A DNA stretch of 27,457 nucleotides, from NCBI GenBank assembly GCA_009869945.1, contig WIXG01000672.1:1-27457 (forward strand), read 5' to 3'. Below the pieces are notes generated by a model, which saw only the letters and a list, made by a program, of their open reading frames with translations, made no database searches and was not told where the DNA came from. The DNA comes from Mesaphorura yosii. Its lineage: Eukaryota; Arthropoda; Collembola; Poduromorpha; Tullbergiidae. Made by a program: the position numbers and the translations under genes. Positions 974-27,457 of this stretch are shown here, piece after piece. Each line of letters begins with the position of its first letter. The first letter of the stretch is position 1.

Positions 974-3900
974 CTAGGCGAAGGTTTTAATGAAGATTAC
1001 AATAAAAATTCCGACTAGCACAGTAACACTGGATGCCCAGACGAGTTCATAACGTTGGTTAAGCGCCCGACCCTCCAATTTGTTTCCATCTTGATTTTCA
1101 TCGGCAGGGTCAGCAATCGATGAATTTGGGAGTGAGCGCAGCATTTTCCAGTAATTGATCGGCACGCCCACGCAGCTCAAGTGCAACAGACACCACGAGA
1201 TGCAATTGTGAATGAAAAAGCTGTACTCCCAGTCTTCTTGCTGTTCATTCCGCACATTTTCGACCAGCTGTCGCCCAGTCGCTGGGCCAATCTCGAACTG
1301 GATTCCCTCCACGTCCTTCAGATCCTCCTCTGCTTGTTGCAGGCTGGCGTAAGGCTTAAGGATTAGAATCCGAGTGTCGCCCGTCCACAGTTTGAGATCA
1401 GCACGAATCAGGAATCGCTGGTCGTGCACGACGCCTTCCAGGACGAGAAACGTGTGGCGGAACAGAACTCGCCTTAAAAGCAGGGCAAGCAGGATCCGGA
1501 ACTTGGATTTTTGGTGCCTGAGCCTTCTCCCGACGAGTGAAACCACCCACCTGGAGTTAGACGCAAAGAATTCAGGACTTTGGTGCTGATTTCGGTTTCT
1601 AAGGATGGACAGGAAGTGGCGGGGCTTTGACTCCTTTTCATCTGCTGGTAGGAGCCTGAACAAGGACGATTGCAAATAATACGCCTGGCCTGGAGGAGCT
1701 GGAGTCCCAAACGCGCCAAAGCTGTCGAGAATTCCACGGGACCAATCAGAGAGCCGAATACATTTGTCATAGTTTAGATTTTTCGCAATTAGTTCTGTCT
1801 GTTGTCGATTTAGGATCGATTTCAAAGTCCATTCTCCGTCAGTCGTGAACTGGAGGACGATGAGATTGGATGACGAGCCAGCGACGATCACGTCAACTAC
1901 ATTGCCGCTTTCTGTACCTTGCAGGCCGCTACGCCGACGCGGCTGGTATGCGTGCAGTGTGTGGACCGCGAACCACAGCGGAATTTGGCGGAGAAGCTTA
2001 AAACTACCTGCGTCCCTCAGCTGCAGGCTTCCTTCTCTGTCGCTGAGCAGGAGACAGCGCTGGTGCGATTTCGATCCCGGTTTGTTGATCACGCACATTG
2101 CCGAATACAGAAACGAATTACCCTCAATCTTGAACCACATCTTACTCTTCCAGCGGCTTTGGACTGGATTCACTTTCCAAACTTGTAAACTTCCAGACAT
2201 GGAGTAGAGCAATGGCTGGAGAAGGTCAGGATCAAAATACAGGGCGATCGACTTTGAATACTGCTTCTCTTTAAGTTCCGCTGCAGATAACAGGTCAAAA
2301 ACGTATGCCGGCTGGTTGGATGGAGCCCCCACCCTCCAAATTCGCACTGTGTTGATCATATTCTTGGTGATGACCCATTCCTGGTCCGATGAGATGTTAA
2401 TCCAGAGGTCGACATGCTCCCAGGGCTTGGTTGTTGCTGCACAAGCCACTTTGAGCTGACCGTACGCGTTTATCCTTGCCGAATAGTAAGATTCACCGGG
2501 GCAGTCATACGAAAGGAGTTGACTCGGCTTGAATTTTTGCTGCCAGTTGTCGTACGTCCAGAGCTGGACGGTGCCGTTCCACGACTCGGTGGCCATTTGG
2601 ACCCGTTTAGCTTTCATATTCAGATCGCACGAGTAAATGTAGTGTGCCACCCCTTCAACAAGCTTTTTACTGCCGAATCCCCAAATTTCTTCCGACAGAA
2701 CGACACGTTTGTGGAGATCTCCGCGGGGAATGTTGAGGAGCAGCACCACAAACTGTACGTGACCCTTTTCCACACAAGCGTCGAACCCGTTTCCACACCC
2801 GTTTCTAGTTTCATCATCAGTTCCAATTCCCGTCCTTTCTTCACTTCCACAATCAACTTCCACACCAGCAAATATAAAGTGCTGATCGTCAGGGGAAAAG
2901 TCCATTGCAAAATGCTCTCCGAGTAATCTGCGCGGCTTTGTGTACGAAGTTGCATTGCTCTGATGGCCGGATGTCTTCCAAAACTTTAGGAGATGCTTAC
3001 TCTCTGTTGCGTAGCCGATGCTGCCCTTTTCACTGCTTGGGTGGTCTGGATGCAAAGTGGCCACCCACTCCTGGCCATGCGATATGGCGACCCTCAAGAT
3101 TTTCCCGAACGGGTCTGGGCCATTGTCTTCCTGCTCGTGGCACTCATGAAGTGATTTGGGACTTGGGAGCGATAGCTTGTAAAATTGGATCGTGGGGCTG
3201 CGATTGCTGCTGGCTGCAATAATTGGCTTTGTAGGGTGGAAACAGAGTGAGGACACTCCCGCGAGCCGCCTGGAGAGCTTCTGGAGTAATTTCCCAAAGG
3301 GTACTGAAGTCCCGTCTTCAGCCTCGCGCACACCAGTGCTCCACACTAAAATGTTTCCAAAGTTATCGGAAGACGCGAGAAGCGTGGCTGGCGGGTTGAA
3401 CGCAACGCACTTCACAGAGACTCCAACTCGCATGAACGTGTCGTGCGAGAGGATCGCCGGTGCCTTCGGTGCTAGTGTAGAAGCTTCAGCCGTAGCACAT
3501 CGGACTTTACGATTTTCCTGATCCAGAGTCAGGTTGTGCAGGTGCACTTCCCGGCCAACTATAAAAGTCACAAGTCGCTCCTTCAGCGGGGCTGGCCGGT
3601 CGTCAAATACTAAAGCACTTGTGAACTGATTTAAAACAAGTACCCCGATCAGCTCAGCTTGGCCCTCGTCTTTAGCACTGTGGGACATTAGCTTATAGAT
3701 TCGAATCACTGATTTGCGAAAGAGGCCTAGAAAGCACGTGGAGTTCGTCCCATCACTTTCGTAAACGCAGTTTGATAGGACAACTGTCACATGGCGCCTG
3801 ACTTCAGATTTTGGGATCGGTTCGTCTCGCTCAAGTCGCATCTGACCACTCCGCCAATAAAACGCCTTGATCTTCCCGTTCAAGTACATGCAGATCCACT

Positions 3901-4813
3901 GGCAATTCACATCCACACACTCTTCATGTTCTTCCTCATTTTTGCCCTCAGCCCCAAACATCTGTTTCAGATTGAATTCGACGGGTAGTGGTCTCCCTTT
4001 TACTGCCTTCATATCGTAGAGTCGGACAAAGCAGCTCGTGTCCTCGATATCTGGATGGTTGCAAAACCAAACTGCTACAAACAGCTTGCCAGTGCACGGA
4101 ATTATTCTAAACTTTGTGGGGTACAGCGCTGAGTGTCGAAAATCACCGGCTTTCGTCCGCTTCACTTGAAACTGAAATGGGCGCAGGTGGTTTCCAGTGT
4201 TAAAGTTCCAGCAGTGTACCCACGAAGTCTTTTCTGGGTAATAATGCGGGTGGTTATTCTTTTTGACTGACTCAATACAGAGGGACGTGAGAATTGGGTT
4301 TCCAGGTGTGTCGATCCATGCTGTGAGTCCGGTGGGCGCTTCGCCGGGAAGGCACGTGACTCGAAGTTCTTCCCCAAATTCAGTCAAGAAGAGGTTCGTA
4401 CCTTTAAAGTTAGCGTTGACCAGCCACGAATTGGAGAAATTCACCGCACTCAAATCCGCACCACGAAAATCCGTTCCGCCACACATGGAATTTGTAAGGT
4501 TTGCACCCGAAATGTCTACGTTTCGGAGGTCGTGACGGGAAAAGTTAAAATTTGCACGGTTCAGCACTGTGATGGCATTTGCGGCGGCTGGCTTGCGGTC
4601 TTGATCAAAACGGGACGACTTGACCAGGTCGAGGAGGGCGGTTTGCAGGCAGGAGTCTGAGGTGCACCTTTGGGAGAGTGTCTGAAGGAGGCTCTCGGAT
4701 GGGTTGAGTTGAGCAAGGTCAGGGTACTCCTGTAGCAGGCGGTCAACTGGATCGGCCCTGACACATGCTACCGTGGCGGAGCTTCCTGGTGTGCTTGAAG
4801 GCTCTGGCTCCAT
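974..4813 (-). CDS. Pentapeptide-repeat / WD40 tail-anchored protein (STAND-like C-terminal architecture)
   Basis: One intronless frame of 1279 aa. Residues 83-142 are pentapeptide repeats of A(D/N)LxX type (e.g. SGANLTNS, FRGADLSAVNF). They are preceded by a helical stretch and ANAITVLNRANFNFS, and followed by a phenylalanine-glycine-glutamate turn (FGEEL). In bacterial STAND proteins this order follows a NACHT ATPase, but no P-loop or NACHT is present here. About 200-1010 is a degenerate WD40 propeller; the clearest blade is 461-493 (SVKCVAFNPPATLLASSDN, ending LVW), with others near 516-546 and ending VQLWTY, VRIWRV and LQVWKV. About 1100-1210 is a separate domain with H1120 and an HNC motif (C1204). 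Residues 1257-1276 form one hydrophobic segment, so the protein is probably tail-anchored with its bulk cytosolic. The Met at 4813 fits the domain order. Role unknown; a scaffold or sensor is plausible. Confidence 0.75.
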   Translation of the reverse strand: MEPEPSSTPGSSATVACVRADPVDRLLQEYPDLAQLNPSESLLQTLSQRCTSDSCLQTALLDLVKSSRFDQDRKPAAANAITVLNRANFNFSRHDLRNVDISGANLTNSMCGGTDFRGADLSAVNFSNSWLVNANFKGTNLFLTEFGEELRVTCLPGEAPTGLTAWIDTPGNPILTSLCIESVKKNNHPHYYPEKTSWVHCWNFNTGNHLRPFQFQVKRTKAGDFRHSALYPTKFRIIPCTGKLFVAVWFCNHPDIEDTSCFVRLYDMKAVKGRPLPVEFNLKQMFGAEGKNEEEHEECVDVNCQWICMYLNGKIKAFYWRSGQMRLERDEPIPKSEVRRHVTVVLSNCVYESDGTNSTCFLGLFRKSVIRIYKLMSHSAKDEGQAELIGVLVLNQFTSALVFDDRPAPLKERLVTFIVGREVHLHNLTLDQENRKVRCATAEASTLAPKAPAILSHDTFMRVGVSVKCVAFNPPATLLASSDNFGNILVWSTGVREAEDGTSVPFGKLLQKLSRRLAGVSSLCFHPTKPIIAASSNRSPTIQFYKLSLPSPKSLHECHEQEDNGPDPFGKILRVAISHGQEWVATLHPDHPSSEKGSIGYATESKHLLKFWKTSGHQSNATSYTKPRRLLGEHFAMDFSPDDQHFIFAGVEVDCGSEERTGIGTDDETRNGCGNGFDACVEKGHVQFVVLLLNIPRGDLHKRVVLSEEIWGFGSKKLVEGVAHYIYSCDLNMKAKRVQMATESWNGTVQLWTYDNWQQKFKPSQLLSYDCPGESYYSARINAYGQLKVACAATTKPWEHVDLWINISSDQEWVITKNMINTVRIWRVGAPSNQPAYVFDLLSAAELKEKQYSKSIALYFDPDLLQPLLYSMSGSLQVWKVNPVQSRWKSKMWFKIEGNSFLYSAMCVINKPGSKSHQRCLLLSDREGSLQLRDAGSFKLLRQIPLWFAVHTLHAYQPRRRSGLQGTESGNVVDVIVAGSSSNLIVLQFTTDGEWTLKSILNRQQTELIAKNLNYDKCIRLSDWSRGILDSFGAFGTPAPPGQAYYLQSSLFRLLPADEKESKPRHFLSILRNRNQHQSPEFFASNSRWVVSLVGRRLRHQKSKFRILLALLLRRVLFRHTFLVLEGVVHDQRFLIRADLKLWTGDTRILILKPYASLQQAEEDLKDVEGIQFEIGPATGRQLVENVRNEQQEDWEYSFFIHNCISWCLLHLSCVGVPINYWKMLRSLPNSSIADPADENQDGNKLEGRALNQRYELVWASSVTVLVGIFIVIFIKTFA

Positions 4814-5328
4814 GTTGCAGGCCGTGAGTCAAATACAAAGCCGGCTAATGCGTGAGTATTTGGCGGTTGACTTGAACCATCCGCTTCAAAGTGCGAAAGA
4901 ATGCAGAAACTGTTGTGCAAGTCAAGTCGAGTCGTATCAGACTGAATGTTGTTTTTATTTGACACGATTAATTTATGGTTATTGCTACTTACAGAGAGGT
5001 ACATTGCCAAAAAACCTATTAGTGCTCATAACTGACTCGTACGTGATGTTTGCATGCAAACGCCTCTGCAGATCTGAGATCTTTTTCTGCTCACTCGGCT
5101 CACTGGTCCACTCCACGAGTACAAGGTCGACAGCTTATAAACGTTGTGTTGTGTAGCCGCTCCATGCTGCATAGCATATCTGCAACATTGAGATTCATGA
5201 TTTAGATTCAACTGCGTTGATGATTTTGCACATCGGACATGGAAAAATGTGCAAATTCTTATCGTGCATATGAAGACGTGAAATTCAAGCGCTCGGCTCT
5301 GTCCAATGAAATGAAATGCTACAGAATT
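4814..5328. other. Intergenic stretch, no gene seen
   Basis: This 515-bp AT-rich stretch lies upstream of the pentapeptide-WD40 gene and downstream of the MACPF gene, both on the minus strand. Short open frames occur on both strands but none has recognisable protein character or splice context. The part near 4814 is the presumed promoter of the pentapeptide-WD40 gene. Confidence 0.5.
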
Positions 5329-6927
5329 TTAAAACACTTGATTCGAAAAATGGAAATTTTTGGAGTAAACGTTAACAATTTTTTCGTAAGGACACAGCCA
5401 CCCTTCCTGCACCAGCCGATCCTGCAGCACTCCAGGATCCACGCTCGGCACTTGACTCTGCAGCCGATCCAGCCAAACGGGTACACGTCGGCGTTCTTCA
5501 ATCCACCGTCGGATGCAAGCTTGGTGGATCTCCTCCAGTTTGTATGACCGGACTCCCTCCGGATCCAGCAGCTGAATTTCATGCAGATACGCCGTCGATG
5601 GCAATTGCGGGACTGTCACAGTCAAAGGAGGGCCAGTCGCAGGTCCAGTGAGTGCAGGAGTGCAGATTGACTTGATAAACTTAGTAACCTCCGCCGTCGT
5701 TGTCCCCATCGCCCCCTGGGTCCTCCCTACCCCCTGGTAGGACCAAACAACCAACACCTGGATTATACCGCCATGTTGCTCCTTTGTAATCAAATGTGTG
5801 CCCCATCGGCGGGTAAAGTCCGGTGTCCTGATTCTTAAAAATTTCGCGTCGCTTATGAATGCTGCGCTTCCAGCGAGAACAGCACCACCCTCCCGCACCG
5901 TCAACTCCATCAATGGAATATGGAAGGTGTACCAGGAAAACTGCCGTTTTTGGTGGTCCTCCGAATGCAGGTGGGCCTCAAATACGGGTCGGCTGACTCT
6001 GAGGCCACTTGGGATTTGCACAATTTGGTTGTCCAGCCGAATCGCTGTGGTCGTGGTCGTCAAGTCTAGAAGTGCCGGATCGAGATTAATCACTCTCTGC
6101 GGATCTGCGCTGTCGAAACCGCGCCCAATTTGGACAAATTCGATCTTGGTTCCAACCTGCGTGGTGCTGATCAAAGCCGCCGCCTGCAGAAACGTGATGG
6201 ACTTGGTAAGCTCTTCGCCGACGATCTCTACATTCACCGGTACTTGTTCAAAGTAATAATCCGCTCCGGAAAGAGACGAAGGCAGCACCATCCGGCCGAA
6301 AAGTCTATTCACTTCTTCAGTAATCAGCTGATTTGATTCGGAGCCTTGATTTGCAAATATAATTGGCACAGGCGTGGCCAGTCCAAGATCTGATCGGAAT
6401 CCATTCATAATTGATTCTCGGATGAATTCTAACGCCGGGGTCGAAATTGATGCGTTCATATCCGCCAAGATTACCAGTACATTGCCTTCACTTGCAATTC
6501 TGTGTGATTTTAGTATCTGCAGACTTTGGCGGAACGTCGATGCAGGACCAACCATGCGGATCTCAGCCGCTGGGTAGAAATACAGAACCACTGGAGGCTG
6601 GAGGCTGTACTGCTTGATCCGTTGATTAATTGAGTTCAGAAATGCTTGTGCTTCTGCGTGATTTATGACTTCTTGGTGGTCGTCACCACAGAGAAATCCA
6701 GGCAAGTCGATTATGCGCAGGTTCAGGTGCTTATTCACAAATTCGCGTCGACATCTGAAACGGCCCGCACTTTCACTTGTATTTGCATATGGAATACCTG
6801 TGATGAGAGAATTCAGTGTTCCACTGATTCCACAAGAGGATACGCCACAAAAGATAAGGCAGGCACTGCCAGAACTGTGATTGTTGCTTTTGAAAAACGT
6901 AAATGTGTCGGCCATCTCCATGATCAT
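5329..6927 (-). CDS. GTPase-like / MACPF protein with degenerate P-loop
   Basis: An intronless frame of 532 aa. Residues 28-37 align with a G1/P-loop of AIG1/septin-like GTPases, but the lysine position is isoleucine (GVSSCGISGT, I34). A G3-like DLPG stands at 74-77 after a short switch region. Nucleotide binding is therefore doubtful and hydrolysis unlikely. The C-terminal half carries the MACPF signature: WGTHLITKEQHGG at 375-387 fits Y-G-T-H-(F/Y)-x6-G-G with W and L substitutions. MACPF proteins oligomerise into membrane pores (perforin and complement family). No signal peptide is evident, so the protein is probably cytosolic. It lies head to head with a second GTPase-MACPF gene across 536 bp, suggesting shared regulation. 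No Hint domain follows. The Met at 6927 is the first in frame; nearby Mets (residues 3 and 5) are alternatives. Confidence 0.7.
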   Translation of the reverse strand: MIMEMADTFTFFKSNNHSSGSACLIFCGVSSCGISGTLNSLITGIPYANTSESAGRFRCRREFVNKHLNLRIIDLPGFLCGDDHQEVINHAEAQAFLNSINQRIKQYSLQPPVVLYFYPAAEIRMVGPASTFRQSLQILKSHRIASEGNVLVILADMNASISTPALEFIRESIMNGFRSDLGLATPVPIIFANQGSESNQLITEEVNRLFGRMVLPSSLSGADYYFEQVPVNVEIVGEELTKSITFLQAAALISTTQVGTKIEFVQIGRGFDSADPQRVINLDPALLDLTTTTTAIRLDNQIVQIPSGLRVSRPVFEAHLHSEDHQKRQFSWYTFHIPLMELTVREGGAVLAGSAAFISDAKFLRIRTPDFTRRWGTHLITKEQHGGIIQVLVVWSYQGVGRTQGAMGTTTAEVTKFIKSICTPALTGPATGPPLTVTVPQLPSTAYLHEIQLLDPEGVRSYKLEEIHQACIRRWIEERRRVPVWLDRLQSQVPSVDPGVLQDRLVQEGWLCPYEKIVNVYSKNFHFSNQVF

Positions 6928-7463
6928 GCAGTCAAACTGCCAATGTCCAGGCCCCCTCCGCCTAAACTGATGATGAACGTAAATCTGATGCCCTTAGCCT
7001 TTGGAACAGAAGAAGATGGCACAACACAAATTACACTAAACTGGTTCAGTAATCGAGGCACTCTGGACAGCATGAACTAGTCCCTGCTTGTGAGTGTGAA
7101 GAGTCGATCTGTCAGCAAATCTTCAAAGCCGAGCATAGCTTGAGTTGAAGGCTGAGCTCATCTGGCTATTTTAGTCTTGGCCAGCTTTATCATTACAGCT
7201 TTACATTACATTGCAAAACGCAGTGGTTAAAGTGGCTGATCTGCTAGACTGCCTCAAGTACGAGTGAAGAAAGCATGGCAAAACTCTCAGTTGCAAATAT
7301 TTCACACACGCGCAAGCTTTTGCCTTGGCTCTCAATACATCCTAACAGGCATCATTTTCTGTCTAGACCGAGCGGGGCGCGGTTGATCCTTGTCCTTCTT
7401 TCTCAGTTTAACTTTTGTACGCAAACGCTAAACAAGAACTGCTTTCTTAGACGAGTTTAGAGC
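6928..7463. promoter_or_regulatory. Divergent promoter region between two GTPase-MACPF genes
   Basis: These 536 bases separate two head-to-head genes with the same domain order. No open frame in it looks like a gene and I find no convincing TATA box. It must contain both 5' UTRs and both core promoters unless one gene has a distant start. A bidirectional promoter is inference from layout. Confidence 0.45.
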
Positions 7464-10400
7464 ATGGATTCATTCTGTAACAGTTTAATTGGCCACAATA
7501 TGAGGTCGGACTCGGTAAGTCGCCTGTCCATTCACATCAGCATTTAATCAACGGCTAACCCTGATTCTAACTCGAATTGCTCTTCTAGGACGTAAATCTA
7601 CCGTCGACGACCTCCGAGTTCATCAGCGTGATGAAGGATGGAATCCGTCGCGAAGTCCTGAGTGCAATGTTGGGTACAGGTAAGTGTTGAGCTGTTCTGC
7701 AGTCATTTAGCAAACTGCACTCCATCAGACACTGCTCCGGTTTACAGCGGTTTCGACAGTCTTGTGGTCTGTAACCCTTGGGGCCTTTGGTTCATCTCCG
7801 GTTGGGGCCTTTGGTTCATCTCCGGTTGGGGCCTCTGGTTTATCTCTGGTTGGGGCCTTTGGTTCATCTCCGGTTGGGGCCTCTGGTTTATCTCCGGTTG
7901 GGGCCAAGTTACTCGACTACACGGATATGCCAGCGTCCAAGCAGCAGCTCCTAAAATATACCGGATCTGCACTGCTGCATGGACGTCCGCTCAACTCGTT
8001 AATGGTCATCTTGGCCGGACAAACTGGGAGAGGTAATTACACAGAGACCAAGTTTCTAAGTCTGTTTTATCAGTCTAGTCTAATCTGACTGATAACTGCT
8101 GATTGCTAATTGCAGGAAAGTCGACAACAATCCAGAGGTTCTTCGACGATTCAATCTACAACTCTGATGTTGACCGCACGATGAATATTTCCGTATACGA
8201 GAAGCAGCTGCGTGTAACAAGTGAGTGGCCAGTTCTCGTCGGGCGCATTAAATTCATTGATTTTCCTGGCTCGCTGGACGAGGAGCCCGACAGGGCCGTT
8301 GAGAACTTTGCAAGGCTGAGGAATTTCAGGAAAAATCGTCCGGAGCTGGCCGAGCGATCAAAAGGTATGGTTATTGTTAATTTATCCAGAGAATATTCTT
8401 GCGAGTACATGGGAGACTGACTTTATATTTCAGACGCAGCAAATCCTGAGCTCGTGAAATTAAAGGTCGAAGTGAGAAAAATCGTGTATCCGAATTTGGT
8501 CTTGCTCGTGGCTTCTGCGAACGATCGTGACATCACACAACCCAACTCTGACTTTCGTAAATCTGCAGCTTACCTCAAGGCGTCGGACACCGTGGACACG
8601 AAGCAAGTCAATCTGATTGTTGTCATCACGCATGCTCTGGACATACCTTCTGACCGTTTTCAAATGAGATGCGATGCAATCACGCAAGATGTTCAGTCTG
8701 TTGTTCAATACACGTTTGGTATTCCAAAAGTCCAAGCAGTCTTCGTCGAAAACAAGTTTGAGGGACGCGGAGAAATGGATGGCGATTTCTTGAAACTGCC
8801 GAATGGCGAGCGGAATTACGAAAACCTTAAGAGTTCCATGGAGGAGCTCTTTAGGAGGACACACGACAACATTGCGATGCAGTTCACGTCGCATTACTTT
8901 CAGCTCAATGCTCCAGAGAAGCGTATCCGCCCAGACCACCACAGCACCAACATTGATGCGTACAGCTGCACACTAACGGCCGAGCAGAAGGACGAAGCGC
9001 GAAACATGCTGAAGGATTTGGGCTTGTACACGGGCCGCGATCCAACGCAAATGCCAGTCAGATTCAACTACTTGGGGCGAGGCTACTGCCCAAAGTTCGA
9101 ACGAACAAAGCAAATCAACATGTTTAGCAACTGCGAGTATAAAGTGTGTCGTGCTCTCGGCCAACCGCTTAGAATTCCGTCCAACGTCATGATTGCCAAA
9201 ATGTCGGAGCTGAAGAGCGAACGACTGAGCTTAAACACGAAGAAAGAGTACGAGGACCACCGCCAATCTAAGCTGGGCATTTCTGGCAATTTCCACCTGA
9301 TTGTGGGCAACATTGGTGGGAATTGGAATGATGACATGGAGAACGGAGACTCCCAAGAGATTGTAAAGTTCTCGTACTCGTTTTGCTTTGCGAACGCTGA
9401 GTTGGAGCGTGCAGAAGACAATCTGGGTAAGAGCTTTCTATTTCTGGTCTGGTATTTGACTACTTTGACCAGACTCCAAAATCCAGCGTCTGAATGCCGG
9501 CTTGACTCGAATTCCAGATGAAACATTGACAGACGCGCTGGATGCCCTGCCCAACAAATTCGAAGCTGGAAGCAGGAACAGGTTCGATATGTTTTTTGAC
9601 GGCCACGGAACTCATCTTATACGCGAAGTGAATTTTGGGGGCTCCATACACATCGAGGCTCACCTTGAGCAGTCGGCTCTCCTAAGAGGAAGTAAAATCG
9701 CCATCGCAGCTGGTCTGGAAGGTGAATTCAAGAAAAAGTTTCTGAGGGTCATGAGCGAGGGAAGTTGGAGTTGGGGCACAGAAAATAGCTCAGGGATTGA
9801 GTTTTCAAGCGTGAAATTCGTTGGCGGACGACCACTTCCAGACGTCACGACAGTTGAAGAACTGACTCCGCGGAAACTGAAAAAATGGTTGGAGAGTGTG
9901 AAGGAAATGGAAGGGGGTCTCATTACCGAACTTCCAGACACGATGGAGCTGAAGGCTTACTATCTGATGGCGAGCACCGACGAAAAGAAACAGGCGCTGA
10001 AGGAGGCGACGATTGATTATTTGAGCCGGGTCGTCCAAGGATCGGAGAGGAGCTCCGAATCCGAGAACACACGGGAAGCACTGGCAGCCAAGCATGCCCA
10101 GATTGCTAGAGAAAATGCTGAAGCTGCGGCGAAACACGGGGAGTGCTGCTTTGCAGGCTCAACTATTGTGAAGACCCTGAATCGTGGACCTACTCCAATC
10201 GCAGATTTGATCCCTGGTGACGTGATTGATTCCGGAACGAGTGCAACGTCGTTTCTGACGTATCTGCATTATGACCCGGATGCCTGTGTGCAGTTCTGCG
10301 TCATCGAACTGGAGAATGGTGTCATACTGGAGCTGACTGGTGAACATCTGCTTTTCCTGGCTGGTGATGGCGATACAACTACGGATCTTACCTCTGTGGC

Positions 10401-10752
10401 AGCGAGGGAGGTTCAGCCAGGTCACCGTTTGATGGCTGCAACTTCGCCTAGTTCAATAGCGCCGACGTCAGTCACAAACGTATCCTGGACTGAAGCAAAG
10501 ACTGGAATCTACTGCCCACTTGTAGCCTCCGGAACTTTCCTCGCCAACGGGGTGCTGGTCTCGTGCTACTCAAATCTTCGGTCGACTAGCCTGGCCAGAG
10601 CTCATGCCAGCCTTCTGCCTCTCAGAATGTGGATTCGTTTACGAAACGGCGTACGACGTGTGGCGGGTTGGGCAGATGCCACTAAAGCTCCTCCAAATGG
10701 TATTCACGCCTACGCAAGGGCTCTGATGAAGTTTCGGGACATTTTCGAGTAA
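7464..10752 (+). CDS. GTPase - MACPF - Hedgehog-type Hint fusion protein
   Basis: Six exons are supported by GT..AG sites: 7464-7514, 7589-7679, 7748-8032, 8116-8364, 8434-9426 and 9518-10752, giving 967 aa. The third exon could instead start at 7760 (4 aa shorter). Domains in order: five 8-residue repeats (GAFGSSPV type); a P-loop GTPase with canonical GQTGRGKS at 138-145 and G3 DFPG at 191-194; a long linker; MACPF signature HGTHLIREVNFGG at 586-598; an Ala/Glu-rich helical stretch; then a Hint domain from C767 (CFAGSTIV) with T830 and H833 (LTGEHLLFLA) and a closing SCYS at 905-908. The last 60 residues (AHASLLPLR, GIHAYARALMKF) resemble the tail of Hedgehog C-terminal domains. By family knowledge, Hint cleaves the peptide bond before its Cys, here releasing about 201 aa. 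No signal peptide is apparent. Confidence 0.8.
7780..7905 (+). repeat. 24-bp coding tandem repeat, five copies
   Basis: Five head-to-tail 24-bp units (ggggcctttggttcatctcc plus ggtt) run from 7780 to 7899 and are followed by a partial sixth (ggggcc). In the gene frame they encode GAFGSSPV, or GASGLSPV variants, just before the GTPase domain. All three forward frames stay open through the array because 24 is a multiple of three. The GT..AG context places it inside exon 3, though an intronic position cannot be fully excluded. Confidence 0.85.
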
Positions 10753-12395: not shown

Positions 12396-12651
12396 TGAAG
12401 AGCTGTTACAATTAACTTAAGCACAAATGCCCTTGGCTGAGCTACGTGCAAGCGTGAGTTGTCTGGAGTTCCTTCTTCCTTGCCCATGCCCTCGAGTATT
12501 TGTCCTTGAGGGATTAAGCTTGAGATCTGAGAGCATGCAGCCTGGCCTGGCCTGGCATAACGTCCCGTCCTTTCACTTCGCAGCATCTGTTTGCGCGTTC
12601 AAGGTCAGTTAAATCTTTAGGGCACGGACGCACGGACAGCAATTCTTTGCA
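12396..12651. other. Spacer upstream of the secreted repeat protein
   Basis: This 256-bp spacer shows no convincing open frame. It should hold the promoter of the gene starting at 12652. No clear TATA box is seen. Confidence 0.35.
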
Positions 12652-14026
12652 ATGGCAATGGCACGGGCTCAACTCACCATTTTCGGCACCTGGAGGCTCT
12701 TTTTGTTGCTAGCCGTAGCTGCAATTGCTGTTGTGCCGGAGGAGCGGAGGCCTGGCGGCCCTCCCCCGTCTCCGTCCTTCGTCCGCAGTCACTTGGGGCT
12801 GTACCGCCCCGGCACAGGTACCGTCTGGATCCTCGCTCACGATGGCAGCGTCTTCCGGCCCATCTACGCCCAGGGCACAGGCATCGGCGGCTACGACCTG
12901 GCGAGCCCCCGCGACCGGATCTTCACGTTCGATTACGCCAAGCGGGGCATCGCAGACCACCTCGTCCTCTACCGCCCCATGTCTGGGACCATTTGGATCC
13001 TGCAACGCGACCCGCACACGGGAGCGTTCTCGCCCGTCTTCGCGAGCGGAGCGGGCATCGGTGGCTACGACCTCAAGTCGGAGGTCGACTATGCCTTCAG
13101 CTTTGACTACGACAGCATTGGGCGCCAAGACCACATCGTCTTCTACAGGCCGGGGGCGGGCACGATCTGGATCCTGAAGAACAAGGGAGGAGCATTCAGT
13201 CCCTTCTACGCACAGGGCGACCCGGGGAACGGAATCGGGGGCTACGACCTGTCCGACCTCCGCGACCGCGTCTTCACCTTCGACTACAACCACTCGGGTA
13301 ATTTGGCAAGTCAAGTTTTAGAATTCAGAAGCTCTCCACCAATCCCTCCTTTGTCTTTGTCAATTTTCAGGGAAGACTGACCACCTCGTCCTCTATCGCC
13401 CGGGGGTGGGGAAGGTGTGGATCCTTAAGAACCTCGCCGGCCTCTTCGTGCCGGTGTACCCGAGCGAGAGTGGAATCGGGGGCTACGACCTCCTCAGCAA
13501 CTCCGACAACATGTTTGCGTTCGACTACTCGGGGAAGGGAAGACGAGACCACCTCGTCCTGTACCGGCCCGGCTCGGGTCGAATCTGGATCCTGAAGAAC
13601 AGGGGCGGAGCCTTCAGCCCCGTCTACGCCAGCAGCACGACGGGCATTGGCGGCTACGACCTGAAGAGCGGTGTCGACCGCGTCACAGCCTTCGACTACG
13701 CGAAGGCGGGCATCTTCGACCACCTCGTCCTCTACAGGCCGGGGACGGGCACCATCTGGATCCTCAGGCATAAGGCGGGCGTGTTCTCGGCTGTCTACGC
13801 TCAGGGCGACCCCGGTACCGGCATCGGCGGCTACGACCTGGCGAGCCCCCTCGACAAACTTTTCGTGTACGACTACCGCACTCGGGGGCACCATCGGACT
13901 CAGCAGGCGCCCACGGCGGGAGACGCTACGCCAGGTGACAGGGCGAACAACTCGTTAGCGTCAGCGCAACTGCCACCCGATATGCTCACGCTTGAGCATT
14001 CTTTCGCAGCCACCCTCGACGACTGA
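12652..14026 (+). CDS. Secreted FG-GAP/VCBS-like six-repeat protein
   Basis: Two exons, 12652-13297 and 13371-14026, are joined by a GT..AG intron of 73 bp with a pyrimidine-rich 3' end and matching phase, giving 433 aa. The N-terminus has a signal peptide (basic residues, then LFLLLAVAAIAVV). Six repeats of about 50-55 aa follow, each reading roughly DHLVLYRPGTGTIWIL, a GGxFSPVYA strand, IGGYDL and DRxFxFDY. Such tandem blades suggest a beta-propeller or carbohydrate-binding surface like those of bacterial and fungal secreted proteins; ligand unknown. The final blade decays into a low-complexity tail. Coding sequence is strikingly GC-rich compared with flanks, and the repeats are nearly identical at motif level, so the gene may have been transferred and later gained an intron. 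The next in-frame Met (12658) is an alternative start. Confidence 0.75.
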
Positions 14027-17084: not shown

Positions 17085-18782
17085 ATGGAAGTAGATATTA
17101 ACCCGTGCTCCATTGCTGCATTATTTTCGAATCTAGTTTCGCAAGAATACCCGACCTATACAAGAAGCGACCCGACTATTATGGAACAACAAATAGCAAA
17201 TGAATTGTTGTTTAAGTTTTTGGAGTTTCTCACCGATCGTGTTGTTCAGGAGGAAAATACTTGCGAAATTTTAGACGGTAATGATTAATATGTATTACTA
17301 GCATATTAGCTCTGACTAGAACTCATTTACTAAAATCTGTTCATATATCTGTTTCTCAGAATCTCAAGAACCTTGCTCGAGCCAGTCTCCTCCTCCCAGT
17401 CAACTTATTTTGACGATGACGGCCTCGAAATTCCGTATCAAGTAAACGCAATTCCAGTAGAAAGGAAGAAAGAAATTTTGGATTTAATCGATGCGCATCC
17501 AACGTGGTCACTGTCGACATTGCAAAAACATGGGGCCAAAGAGCTGAAACATATGCGTTATAAAGGTGTCTGGGAGAAGCATGTCGCGTCAGGTGGAACC
17601 AAGTTCGAAAAATTCGCTCATATTTCGTCCCATTGTCTCAATTTGTTCATAGAAGCCCGTAACGAGTTTAAGTCAGTTCATGATTCGGACTTAAGACACT
17701 GGGCATTGCAAATAGCTCAAACATTTCAAGACCCAACTTTCAAGTTCAAGGCGAGTGATTCGTGGCTCCAAACCTTTAAGACCCAGCACAAGATAACCTC
17801 CCGCAAAATAACAAATCTGGTCAGCAGACGGCAAATTGTTACTCAACATGAACTTGATAGCCGAGTGAATAAGTTTCGCGATGCATTCAAGCAGAGAGCC
17901 GCAGCATATCACCCTGATTCTGTGATTAACACTGACCAAGTGGGGTTCAATTATGAATTGGTGAGTTTGCGCACGTTGTCGCACCGGGGCGAGAAAATCA
18001 CCTTCGGGTTCGCCAAGTCTCCAAAAAATCTGGCTACTCACTCTTATACAGTACAGTACGTAGTCAGCCTCTCAGGGAAAGTTGTAGCTGACGTTTTTGT
18101 ATGCTTGCGGGAGCAATCAGGGCGAATTAGAGTAAGAGCAGAGGAAAAACTCCCTGCAGTGCCCAATGTGACGCTCACGTGCAGTAAATCTGGCAAGTTA
18201 ACGTCAAGCCTCGTGGAGTATTTCCTTGACAAAGTCCTCAAGCCTGCAATGACTACTAATTTCTTGCTGACACTGGATTGTTGGTGGGGACAAAACAATC
18301 CTTCAATTTATGGGGAGCGATTTGAGTCAGAACTTGGAATTTCGTGCGAAACAATGTTCATTCCTGAAAACACAACCTCGATTTGCCAACCCTTGGACAC
18401 TACATTCAACCGACAGCTCAAGTATTTTGCTAAACAGATCACATCACATGCGAGTCTCTACTTTGATGAAAATGGGAATAGAGAAGATGAAATCACGTCA
18501 CGCAGAAGTATTTTAATAATACATTCATTGATACATCGGCAATTTTCGGCCTCAATCTTTGTACCAATGATTATGTACTGCTGGATTTCTTCAGGCTTGG
18601 CTGATGGCAGCGTACGGGTTTTATCCGTGAAAAAAGCCTGCTTCACATTTTCAGTGGACGAGTCAAGACAGTGGCAAATTGCACTTTGCGTCAAACCAAT
18701 TTTTATAAAATGTGCTCATTGTAGACGAAATTTGTGTTTTGATTGCTTCTTCTACGATTATCACTATTTTTGCAATCCTTAA
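17085..18782 (+). CDS. DDE transposase of pogo/Tigger-like type
   Basis: A first exon from ATG 17085 (about 64 codons) ends at a gtaatg donor at 17278. The main frame is open to TAA at 18780-18782, about 465 aa. The best-looking acceptor (ttctcag, 17359) is out of phase with the main frame; a weaker one at 17385 (gccag) is in phase, so the junction is uncertain or frame-damaged. Main-frame features: a CENP-B-like HTH (DSWLQTFKTQHKITSRK), the catalytic aspartates NTDQVGF, LTLDCWWGQ and CQPLD in DDE order, and a C-terminal CxxC-x4-CxxC zinc-finger-like cluster (CAHCRRNLCFDC). It should bind its own inverted repeats and cut and paste the element. An aataaa signal overlaps the end (18781-18786). 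All three catalytic residues remain. Confidence 0.75.
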
Positions 18783-19930: not shown

Positions 19931-20605
19931 TGATCACAGACCTGATGACGACTCGTCTTGCAAGGGCTTGAAATCATTGAACTTCTTCAGATGAGCGAAG
20001 ATAATTTCGCGAGTCACGTCGTACCTGCGAAGCACGCGGGCTCATGCTTCTTTGTCATTTTCTTCGGTGGCTTGAAACGAAGAAATGATGGTCGCTGCTT
20101 CGCCGATGAGACAAGACTTGAGATGTATAATCTTCTCAGCACCGGACAGGCTCGCGTTCTTGTGGACCGACGCAATGAACAAGTCGCGGAAGGAGGACCA
20201 CTCGGCAAAGTTACCACCGAACTGGGGAAACTTGATGCGCTCCAACCTAAATGATGGTGAAAGATGCGCTAATTTCTTCTCTTTAAGCTTGTTGGCTTCG
20301 GTCATGACTTTGACCTGAAGAGTCTCGATGCACCCGTTGATGGTGTCGAAGTGCCCTTCGTGCACTGCAGGGAAGAACACTTTACTTTCGCACAAGTTGT
20401 ACGTAGCGTCGTACAAATCCTCGCCTTGAGCCTTGAACGCTTTCAAGCTAGTGGAATGCAGCTCCAGCACAGAAGGGTCGAGTAAATCAGGAGGGTAGGC
20501 GATGATAATCACCTGCAACTTCACCACTTTACGGGAGAGCAGCTCCCGTTTCTTCACCAGATCGATGACTATCGCGGGCATGATGGGGTGAGAACGAACG
20601 AGCAC
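19931..20605 (-). pseudogene. Pao/BEL retrotransposon gag remnant (DUF1759-like)
   Basis: The minus-strand frame from 20605 (or the Met at 20581) encodes about 187 aa with a helical start and the DUF1759 core: RIKFPQFGGNFAEWSSFRDL, then SLSGAEKIIHLKSCLIGEAA. This is the gag-side signature of Pao/BEL LTR retroelements. An in-frame TGA at 20042-20044 interrupts it; the same frame then continues with YDVTREIIFAHLKKFNDF to a second stop near 19935. No protease, reverse transcriptase or integrase follows in the window. It is a 5' fragment of a retroelement. Confidence 0.75.
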
Positions 20606-21336
20606 GGTTCACAAAGACAAAAGAACTGGAAAACTTTTTAAAAATTGGGTTGGTTTTGAGGATTTCGATAAAAGGAGAACAGGAGAAATGATTTTATCTC
20701 GCCTTTTATTGATAAACGAAAAAGAACAAGTGACAAACAAAATAACAAAATTGACCGCCCAGGCCAGCAGACGAATGAGGAGTGAAGTGAAGGAAATGTG
20801 ACTTGAGCTTGAAAGCATAAGGAAGCATTAGACAAAAGGCAAACCATACACTGAACGGGAAAGGACCAATAATTGAATAATTAAGTTGGGCATTTTAAAT
20901 TTTGCACCGCGCCGTCTCGACCTCGAACAGTGGTAATTTTGCTTGAGTGGTGAATTGCACACCTGAGTGTGATCCAATTGCTGGGTTCAGACAACCGAGA
21001 CCGCCTACCCGTCAATCATTGCAAATTATTCCAGTTGCGGGGTATTGCAAAAATTCCACTGCATTTGAAAATGGTTAGTGAAATGTCACAAAATGAATTA
21101 TTGAATGCTTTCACATGCCTTTCCAGTTGAGACGACCTTTTGGGCCCAATTGCTTTCACCAAAAGTCCAGAAATAAGGAAAGCAAGTCAATTAAACCTAC
21201 ATTAATTTAAAAGTAGGCACAAGAGCAGTCTTTTCTACGAACTTCAAAATTGACAAATGCTTGAGACTCAAGTTTAGTCAGTCATTTTGCGGTCCAACGC
21301 CACAGTTGCATTCCAACTGGCACGTAAAATTCAAAA
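20606..21336. other. Intergenic stretch with possible LTR/leader relic
   Basis: No gene is seen in 731 bp. The part next to the gag remnant (about 20606-20830), read on the minus strand, is pyrimidine-rich with an aataaa near 20710, which would suit an R/U5 and leader of the retroelement. I found no matching second LTR in the window, so this is a guess. The remainder is AT-rich and featureless and includes the promoter of the receptor gene starting at 21337. Confidence 0.3.
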
Positions 21337-25850: not shown

Positions 25851-26876
25851 TCAATTAAAATGGTGCGACAGTGTCTTGTACTTGTCCAGGGCCGCTACAA
25901 TCCCCTTCGTGTTCGCAGGGTCCTTCGCCTCGTGTCCCGCGCCCCATATAAACTTCAGGTCCGCATGGGGGAGGCACTTTTTCAGGTCCCAGGCGGCCGT
26001 GGCGGGGCAGACGACGTCGTAGCGCCCTTGCACAATCGAAACGGGAGTCCGCGCCTCGGCGAGCACGTGCGCCTGCTCCAAAATGTAGTCCGGAGTAGGG
26101 AGAAATGCTCCATTGACTAAGTAGTGGGACTCCACGCGGCAGTAGCCCAGAGCCTCCTCCCCCACATCCTTACACGCCTCCTCCACTTCCTCGTGTGGCA
26201 CGCGCAGCTCGCATGTCGCCGTCTCGTAGACCATCCACGCCCGCACGCACCGCCGACGCTCCGCCTCGTCGACACCCAGCCCCACGAATCGTTTGTGGTA
26301 CGCCTGCAAAAAGTTACCCCGCTCCTCCGGCGGGATGGCGTTACTATAAACTTCCCAAACATCCGGGAAGAGATTGCTGGCTCCGCCCTGGTTGAACCAG
26401 TCAATATCCGCTTGGCGGCATAGAAACACGCCGTTCACCACTACCGCCAGAACGAGGTCGACGTGGGTCTCGGCGTAGAGCAGAGCGAGAGTGGAGCCCC
26501 AGCTGCCCCCGAATACGACCCATTTGTCCACGCCAAGGTGTTCCCTGAGCTTTTCGATATCCCCCAGCAGTGCCCAGGTATCGTTCTCCTCAAGGCAGAA
26601 AGCAGGCGTCGATTTTCCAACTCCGCGCTGGTCAAACATCACGATTCGGTAGGCGGCCGGGTCAAAATACCGCCTATCACGCGGCACAAAGCCCTCACCG
26701 GGTCCCCCGTGCAAGAAGACGACGGGGAGGCCCTTCGGGTTACCGCACTGCTCGTAGTAAATCGTGTGAAGGGGCGAGACCTTCAGCATGCCCGCATCGT
26801 AGGGCTCGATTGGCGGGTAGAGCCACTTTTCTTGTTTTTCCTCGGCCTTGGCCATCGCTTGTACTGAATACTTCAA
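25851..26876 (-). CDS. Proline iminopeptidase (S33 alpha/beta hydrolase)
   Basis: An intact, intronless 341-aa frame. It removes N-terminal proline from peptides (EC 3.4.11.5) and is normally cytosolic. Family landmarks are all present: oxyanion loop HGGPGEG from H56, DQRG at 82-85, nucleophile elbow GGSWGSTLAL with S125, acid D287 in GRYDVVCP, and H315 in GAGHEA. Length is slightly above the usual bacterial 310-320 aa because of a short N-terminal extension. No signal peptide or membrane segment is seen. Start could be Met1 (26876) or Met8. Coding sequence is GC-rich against AT-rich flanks, and the best-known homologues are bacterial, fungal and plant, so horizontal acquisition is plausible. 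A minus-strand aataaa just after the stop shows a eukaryotic 3' end. Confidence 0.9.
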   Translation of the reverse strand: MKYSVQAMAKAEEKQEKWLYPPIEPYDAGMLKVSPLHTIYYEQCGNPKGLPVVFLHGGPGEGFVPRDRRYFDPAAYRIVMFDQRGVGKSTPAFCLEENDTWALLGDIEKLREHLGVDKWVVFGGSWGSTLALLYAETHVDLVLAVVVNGVFLCRQADIDWFNQGGASNLFPDVWEVYSNAIPPEERGNFLQAYHKRFVGLGVDEAERRRCVRAWMVYETATCELRVPHEEVEEACKDVGEEALGYCRVESHYLVNGAFLPTPDYILEQAHVLAEARTPVSIVQGRYDVVCPATAAWDLKKCLPHADLKFIWGAGHEAKDPANTKGIVAALDKYKTLSHHFN

Positions 26877-27457
26877 CTGTCGCGAACAGAGTGGATAGAA
26901 GGCAGTACTAATTCGACACGGGAAACGCGAAATCTCGGCTAGCCGAAAGAATACCGCAGTAGCCTGATAAGGATACCGCGTATCGCAATTCCGATTGGAA
27001 TGTCTGGAACTTTAGGACACCAAACACAGACAAAAATGATCATCGACGGGACGGCAAAGATTGCAAGGCAAGAAAGAGATTGTCCAGGACCAGAAGATTT
27101 GTAAATAGTAAAAAAGAAAACGTTTTGTAGCCGAAAGCTGACGATTGCAATTGTCATGAATAATTGGCATGAGTTGATGCTACTTGTCCGTTCTGAAACT
27201 TTCTCGCATGACAATTGCTGTGAGGTGGAAAAATGAGAATACAATGTGGCGTGAACGTAATCTGGAGGTTTTACCTTTCTGTGCACAAAGGCTTTATTAA
27301 GTATCAATCTTTACAGAGTAAGGGACGGAAGAAGACTGCCAAAATTACAAATACAAGTTATTAATATCCCGATCCGAACACGACTTGTTGTCATGTCCGT
27401 GCTCCTTCTCTTTGTTGCTTTCTGTGTTGGGTCCGTGATCTCGCCTCTGCGTCATAA
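26877..27457. other. Right window edge, little supported
   Basis: Apart from the possible membrane-protein exon, I see no gene in these 580 bases. The part nearest 26877 is the presumed promoter of the proline iminopeptidase gene. Confidence 0.35.
26939..27307 (-). other. Possible terminal exon of a membrane protein
   Basis: A minus-strand frame ending at 26939 encodes two hydrophobic stretches (FMTIAIVSFRLQNVFFF and SLSCLAIFAVPSMIIFVCVW) and a basic end. A candidate acceptor (ccacctcacag, about 27215-27225) could open an exon inside it. It resembles the C-terminal part of a receptor-like membrane protein, but no TYxxxxxQF motif is present and no upstream exon is visible before the window ends. 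Coding status is uncertain. Confidence 0.25.

Follow-up and report, generated by a model that had tools for sequence, protein, structure and literature searches.

We describe a gene of the springtail Mesaphorura yosii that combines a predicted GTPase, a MACPF domain, and a Hedgehog-type Hint domain with its adduct-recognition region (together called Hog). The gene lies on GenBank contig WIXG01000672.1 (here C672), one of 1127 contigs in a genome of 93.0 Mb; the window, the whole stretch of DNA that was analyzed, is this entire contig of 27,457 nucleotides. Judged from sequence, the combination is real, its order being settled by a collinear paralog on another contig (C601). Tentatively, and at somewhat less than even confidence, we favor the reading that these genes form a real family encoding a probably cytosolic, septin/AIG1-like GTPase-MACPF protein followed by the Hog domain, that is, a self-cleaving and perhaps lipid-tethered pore-former.

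Gene model and collinear paralog

Splice reconstruction yielded a six-exon gene model on the plus strand (positions 7464-10752) that encodes 982 amino acids (aa) with no internal stops; each of the five introns has GT-AG borders, and the exon phases are consistent (Table 1). A preliminary description of this DNA had proposed six exons joined in one frame with agreeing phases, along with a P-loop, DFPG, a MACPF signature, a nucleophile Cys at FAGST, and LTGEHL. The exon structure was confirmed, and every motif was found where it had been placed (aa positions: GQTGRGKS, 138; DFPG, 191; GTHLIREVNFGG, 602; CCFAGST, 781; LTGEHL, 844). The numbering of the nucleophile depends on the exon 6 acceptor. 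With the likewise in-frame acceptor 9518, the protein has 967 aa and the nucleophile is C767, as originally numbered; acceptor 9473 is preferred here, since the sequence at that point can be matched in C601 (QYISTGFTAI versus QRLNAGLTRI), and under this model the same residue is C782. Acceptor 9473 implies an intron of 46 bases, the remaining four introns being 68 to 83 bases long. The C-terminal fragment, previously estimated at about 201 aa, was computed as 201 aa from C782, with a predicted mass of 21.5 kDa. The gene start is the least certain part, because residues 1-112 fall outside the local alignment with C601. These residues include a 24-base tandem repeat (7778-7905, plus strand; 5.3 copies, 92% matches), which lies in frame in exon 3 downstream of a hydrophobic stretch (aa 40-58) and has no counterpart in C601.

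The fusion of MACPF and Hog is independent of splicing, because both domains lie in one unspliced frame of 427 aa (the exon 6 frame, 9469-10752). Pfam matches in this frame were over their cut-offs both for MACPF (PF01823; E = 8.7e-11, 42.8 bits versus 21.5), with a GTHx-x6-GG-type signature present, and for Hint (PF01079; E = 1.4e-34, 120 bits versus 29.7, profile positions 4-209 of 213). The window GTPase carries Walker A and DxxG motifs. Its exons were connected to C601 by direct comparison: the exon 4 frame and the 3' part of the exon 3 frame matched the C601 GTPase (E = 9.7e-10 and 3.6e-5), and the exon 5 frame matched both the C601 GTPase (1.2e-10) and the C601 MACPF (1.4e-4).

The C601 gene has a GTPase exon that scores over the MMR_HSR1 cut-off (2.9e-8, 34.3 bits) and, downstream of it, a 585-aa frame that matches both MACPF (1.3e-18) and Hint (1.5e-34). 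The C601 model of 885 aa with two introns is one of nine frame-consistent three-exon joins and was picked by homology (exon 1 end, L015 3058). In a local alignment across GTPase, MACPF, and Hog, window residues 113-982 and C601 residues 41-885 are 28.4% identical over 902 columns. When the C601 GTPase was used as a genome query, it found three places in all, the other two being window exons. Introns 3 to 5 of the window gene are absent in C601, and both C601 introns are absent in the window gene; because the intron positions differ, the duplication looks old, with the fusion kept, and not like a recent or assembly duplicate. Collinearity suggests a single fusion origin for the two MACPF-Hog genes, a question on which a tree of six Hogs gave no resolution. 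The earlier proposal that GTPase, MACPF, and Hedgehog-type Hint share one gene is thus supported both by profiles and by a collinear paralog.

Table 1. Coordinates of features of the GTPase-MACPF-Hog gene and its neighbor in the window
Feature	Position	Strand	Description
Exon 1	7464..7514	+	Predicted start ATG; GT donor, phase 0; outside C601 local alignment; least certain part
Exon 2	7589..7679	+	AG/GT borders, phase consistent; outside C601 local alignment
Exon 3	7748..8032	+	In-frame 24-base repeat and GTPase start up to GQTGRG
P-loop GQTGRGKS	8017..8123	+	Motif split by intron 3 (8033-8115)
Exon 4	8116..8364	+	GTPase; DFPG at 8259-8270
Exon 5	8434..9426	+	C-terminal GTPase half, then N-terminal MACPF half
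Exon 6	9473..10752	+	Single open frame: MACPF core, linker, Hog domain
MACPF signature GTHLIREVNFGG	9607..9642	+	MACPF profile match and spliced model
Hedgehog-type Hog (Hint and adduct-recognition region)	10147..10749	+	201 aa from nucleophile C782
H822, Hedgehog general-base position (D303/D46)	10267..10269	+	Alignments
TxxH motif, T845 and H848	10336..10347	+	Alignments
C921, motif J (SCYS)	10564..10566	+	Alignment
Head-to-head neighbor	5329..6993	-	GTPase-like, degenerate P-loop GVSSCGISGT, and MACPF signature GTHLITKEQHGG; first ATG at about 6927

The Hog domain and related genes of the genome

The best matches of the window Hog in the PDB set were Sonic hedgehog (6.8e-16) and the "Protein hedgehog" entry 6td6 (2e-10), which we take to be the Drosophila protein. 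The 6td6 alignment extends to residue 461 of 471 (NGIHAYARALMKFRD against NGIHWYANALYKVKD), with the window tail GIHAYARAL pairing with NGIHWYANAL; because the tail is alignable this far, we conclude that the adduct region is kept and not the protease core alone. The window Hog retains the nucleophile C782, T845 and H848 of TxxH, and the motif J C921. The nucleophile Cys and the T and H of TxxH are retained in C601 as well, at about 30% identity, and a HAYA core of the adduct region is common to all four non-Hedgehog Hogs of the genome. At the general-base site (D303/D46 of Hedgehog), His replaces Asp in five of six aligned Hogs (window, C601, C191, C364, and the metagenome protein P0001); only the Hedgehog on C213 has Asp. 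The nucleophile is preceded by Cys in four of the six, by Asp in C601, and by Gly in Hedgehog. The conserved Hint residues named in the preliminary description are therefore present as far as the nucleophile and TxxH are concerned, and the general base is His, not Asp. According to the available text of PMC9163320, Drosophila Hh with the D303H change keeps its structure and cholesterol activity and gains coprostanol and epicoprostanol, a broader sterol range, so His is compatible with activity. Hedgehog with D46A still forms the thioester and shows faster thiol cleavage, with no cholesterol reaction (PMC13060885, a preprint, in the part available). Because the D303H protein is active and the D46A protein still makes the thioester, we expect the window Hog to form a thioester and accept a sterol-like alcohol.

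To place the gene among the MACPF and Hint genes of its own genome, profile searches were run there and in 14 control genomes. PF01823 matched nine places in eight open frames and PF01079 six places, representing five genes; in the controls, each matched one genome, PF01079 below its cut-off. Two of the eight MACPF frames are followed by a Hog (window and C601) and one by a probable intein-like Hint (C9). No other Hint gene adjoining a MACPF was found in the genome with PF01079, with the Vint profile PF14623 (no match), or with the C9 Hint as query (matching itself only). GTPase sequence accompanies five of the eight MACPF frames, namely those of the window, C601, the plus- and minus-strand genes on C9, and C7, where it was assigned by alignment to the C9 plus gene from about the DTPG region onward. 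No GTPase was seen in the MACPF frames of C423, C636, and C403, whose upstream exons were not reconstructed.

The C9 plus gene, on a 601-kb contig, has four exons and encodes 1049 aa in a model that is one frame-consistent join within the narrow set tried. Its GTPase is over the MMR_HSR1 (30.8 bits), Septin, and AIG1 cut-offs, and its MACPF scores 1.9e-13. The part after the MACPF (SSCLRAGT...TEVHLF...GTYFANNFLCRH) is a probable intein-like Hint, for which the PDB set gave the Prp8 and PI-SceI inteins at E values of 0.36 to 1.2.

Other genes of these types were seen in the genome. The frame on C7 (L021 2342-6163, plus strand; 1273 aa) begins with a GTPase-like part and matches MACPF twice, and C216 (L039) and C757 (L042) have further C9-GTPase-like places (8.0e-24 and 3.0e-12). 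C213 carries a separate true Hedgehog gene (HH_signal, 5.7e-44; Hint, 2.8e-54). The Hogs of C191 (L016 5539-6186, plus strand) and C364 (L017 4305-3679, minus strand) apparently stand alone and begin with MVCCCCFPP and MSCCCCFPP, so that the precut part is five residues if there is no upstream exon; in both, SxxH (ISEKH) replaces TxxH, and the general base is His.

In two cases, the window and C9, a Hint-bearing GTPase-MACPF gene lies head to head with a GTPase-MACPF gene whose frame contains no Hint. The MACPF of the window neighbor was read from its GTHLITKEQHGG signature, Pfam MACPF giving no match at 0.1; no Hint was found in its frame, its MMR_HSR1 match (0.038) is below the cut-off, and its alignment to the C601 GTPase is weak (22% over 167 columns). 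The C9 pair, on L020, consists of a minus-strand gene from 2564 to about 5001, with the P-loop GQAEGGKST, and the plus gene at 6198-9569. On C601, no such partner was found among open reading frames of at least 90 aa in the 9.2 kb examined.

Elsewhere in the window are a 1284-aa frame (974-4828, minus strand) with pentapeptide repeats, a WD40 match, and, toward the C terminus, HNCISW followed by a hydrophobic end; repeats DHLVLYRPGTGTIWILK...YAQGTGIGGYDL in two frames (12613-14026, plus strand), with no Pfam match at 0.01; a Tc5-type transposase frame (17334-18782, plus strand; DDE_1, 3.2e-7; HTH_Tnp_Tc5, 7.5e-7); a piece of DUF1759, presumably of the kind known from retroelements (20042-20608, minus strand; 1.7e-11); and a single 386-aa alpha/beta hydrolase frame (25851-27011, minus strand; Abhydrolase_1, 1e-26), which we take to resemble proline iminopeptidase.

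Comparison with described proteins

Fusions of an AIG1-type GTPase to Hint have been described before, and the sources are cited here for the text available from each. GmGIN1 of Glomus mosseae has an N-terminal AIG1-type GTPase and a C-terminal Hint, without a signal peptide (PMC2362128); AIG1/GIMAP-Hint proteins are described in a snail (PMC7053062); coral AIG1-Hint genes were found beside, not among, immune-induced ones (PMC3723955); and for the CARD-AIG1-HINT genes of the lancelet, the context considered by the authors is apoptosis and inflammation (PMC12373286). All have the GTPase ahead of a C-terminal Hint, as in the window gene. These texts mention no MACPF in between, a CARD standing in front of some lancelet and fungal proteins, and PMC12373286 treats MACPF and the HINT domain as separate matters, not as one protein. 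Unlike these proteins, the window GTPase misses the AIG1 cut-off.

The Hogs of nematode, cnidarian, and protist proteins are likewise attached to unrelated N-terminal parts; many of these proteins have signal peptides, and the text available from PMC2362128 attributes a MACPF to none of them, the word "perforin" being absent from its main text. Hedgehog itself (Hh, Shh) and the window gene have in common a Hog that contains the nucleophile Cys, TxxH, motif J, and the adduct region. The window gene differs in having no clear signal peptide, His for Asp303, HAY for HWY, and no Hedge domain found (PF01085 unmatched at 0.1 by the frames of exons 4, 5, and 6). With perforin and MPEG1 of the MACPF family it has the MACPF and GTHx-x6-GG in common, and it differs from them by the extra GTPase in front and the Hog behind.

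Database searches added one relative. Of 1974 protein-database candidates for the Hint region, one matched, the 435-aa P0001 (E only 9.8e-3), in which a Hog with His as general base and CC before F comes after Ras/Roc GTPase domains, and which has no MACPF; it adds a further GTPase-Hint case. Spliced residues 120-982 gave none at E ≤ 0.001 among 7999 candidates scored, and alignment A1 gave none at 0.01 among 8000. Because no animal Hedgehog was listed, despite the Sonic hedgehog match in the PDB set, these negative results are hardly informative on the distribution of the fusion among animals. For A1, 46 pattern matches in viral_contigs and 166 in genome_contigs left 0 confirmed. No NCBIfam family matched the MACPF-Hint frames of the window and C601 or the C9 Hint frame, and the 13 families matched by the C601 GTPase were not near cut-off; among five proteins run through PADLOC, only the C601 GTPase matched (LeoA, 0.018).

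In the open-access literature we found no report of MACPF and Hint in one protein, which does not show absence from print. Nor was a MACPF-GTPase fusion found there in titles and abstract beginnings among the matches listed, or in the available text of PMC9334734 and PMC3927609. The preliminary claim that no protein of this order had been described agrees with this search and needs narrowing: AIG1-type GTPase-Hint fusions are already known in several lineages, and the novelty lies in a pore-former placed between the switch and the cutter.

Proposed processing and its alternatives

From the sequence we infer cleavage, lipidation, pore formation, and GTP gating of the window protein. In the reading that we favor, C782 would attack the preceding peptide bond in an N-S acyl shift aided by T845 and H848, after which a sterol-like alcohol, bound in the C-terminal adduct region and activated by H822, would take over the thioester and so set the 201-aa Hog free. 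The GTPase-MACPF part would retain a C-terminal lipid that tethers it to a membrane, where GTP-driven clustering would trigger pore assembly. By loose analogy with AIG1/GIMAP proteins, the product is perhaps an intracellular defense effector.

Several observations weigh against this reading, beginning with the GTPase. Hint and MACPF, both named in the preliminary description, score over their profile cut-offs; the window GTPase falls under both those tried. Against MMR_HSR1 (PF01926; cut-off, 21.9 bits), the spliced GTPase with the repeat omitted reaches E = 0.004 and 17.7 bits, and the exon 4 frame 0.06 and 13.9 bits. Against AIG1/GIMAP (PF04548; cut-off, 27 bits), the window and C601 score 14.2 and 21.7 bits, and only C9 reaches the cut-off, at 27.3 bits. 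The AIG1 profile also matches all 14 control genomes, eight of them over cut-off; because it is this unspecific, the C9 score says little and any assignment of the GTPase subfamily is tentative. A septin/AIG1-like P-loop type is proposed as part of the favored reading, with the same reserve. Simple hydropathy, with no control run, gave no clear signal peptide in the window, C601, or C9 model; because the window stretch at aa 40-58 (Kyte-Doolittle [KD] value, 1.67) and a mild stretch near the C601 start (KD 1.46 over 11 residues) are hydrophobic, a cytosolic location is not secure. The coral Hint-bearing AIG1 genes lie outside the immune-induced set in the available account, leaving an immune role to analogy only. 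The C9 Hint is counted as no more than probable, because its profile support is weak (Hom_end_hint, E = 0.003 to 0.007, 16.8 to 18.1 bits; cut-off, 32.1), and a profile comparison of the Hogs with it was not significant (probability, 0.5%; E = 0.13). Structure prediction, one of the checks originally suggested, produced no usable fold for the exon 6 frame with P0001 (mean pLDDT, 30.2). Within the Hog, Cys or Asp, not Gly, stands ahead of the nucleophile in the MACPF-Hogs; the sterol-contacting HWY is HAY in the window; less sequence follows motif J than in the genome's own Hedgehog; and the motif J Cys is absent from C601 (TSYA). With HAY in place of HWY and so short a tail, the adduct may be a different one, or there may be none.

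The same Hog features would fit a protein that cuts off its Hog by way of the thioester and simple hydrolysis, the tail serving as an inhibitory or dosage cap and no lipid being attached. Asp at the -1 position favors hydrolytic cleavage of intein fusions. The changed residue before the nucleophile, HAY for HWY, and the short tail region all point this way, as does the D46A Hedgehog, which still forms the thioester and is cut faster by thiol (PMC13060885). Set against this are the adduct region, alignable nearly to the end of the Hedgehog chain, and the HAYA core of all four non-Hedgehog Hogs, neither of which pure hydrolysis would obviously require. We consider this explanation less likely than the favored one. 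Less probable still is a Hog that is no longer catalytic and instead gives the GTPase-MACPF protein a folded domain for binding or scaffolding: the motif J Cys is lost in C601 and HWY is changed in both MACPF-Hog genes, but both keep the nucleophile and the T and H of TxxH, which would be expected to drift if unused. That the order arose as an artefact of assembly or of gene prediction, with adjacent genes read as one, is highly improbable: exons 1 and 2 are short and lack paralog support and the model comes from DNA alone, but the shared open frame largely refutes it for MACPF-Hog, C601 repeats the entire order, and on C9 GTPase-MACPF occurs once more, again with a Hint, though a probable one.

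Extended further, the self-cleaving, lipid-tethered reading leads to a proposal that we consider unlikely as a whole. GTP-controlled MACPF units would esterify their own C termini with a sterol or related alcohol, and autoprocessing would both remove a cap and plant the unit in a sterol-containing membrane. Hint would have been recruited to GTPase-MACPF proteins twice, once as a Hedgehog-type and once as an intein-type domain, and the genes may operate as divergent pairs, the partner in each being a GTPase-MACPF gene that lacks a Hint.

A known step in the making of the Hedgehog signal is the transfer of a sterol by the Hog domain. A pore-former with a Hog tail would, if the favored reading is true, extend this autoprocessing to a membrane-attack protein, and it might help to explain why GTPase-Hint fusions occur in several lineages.

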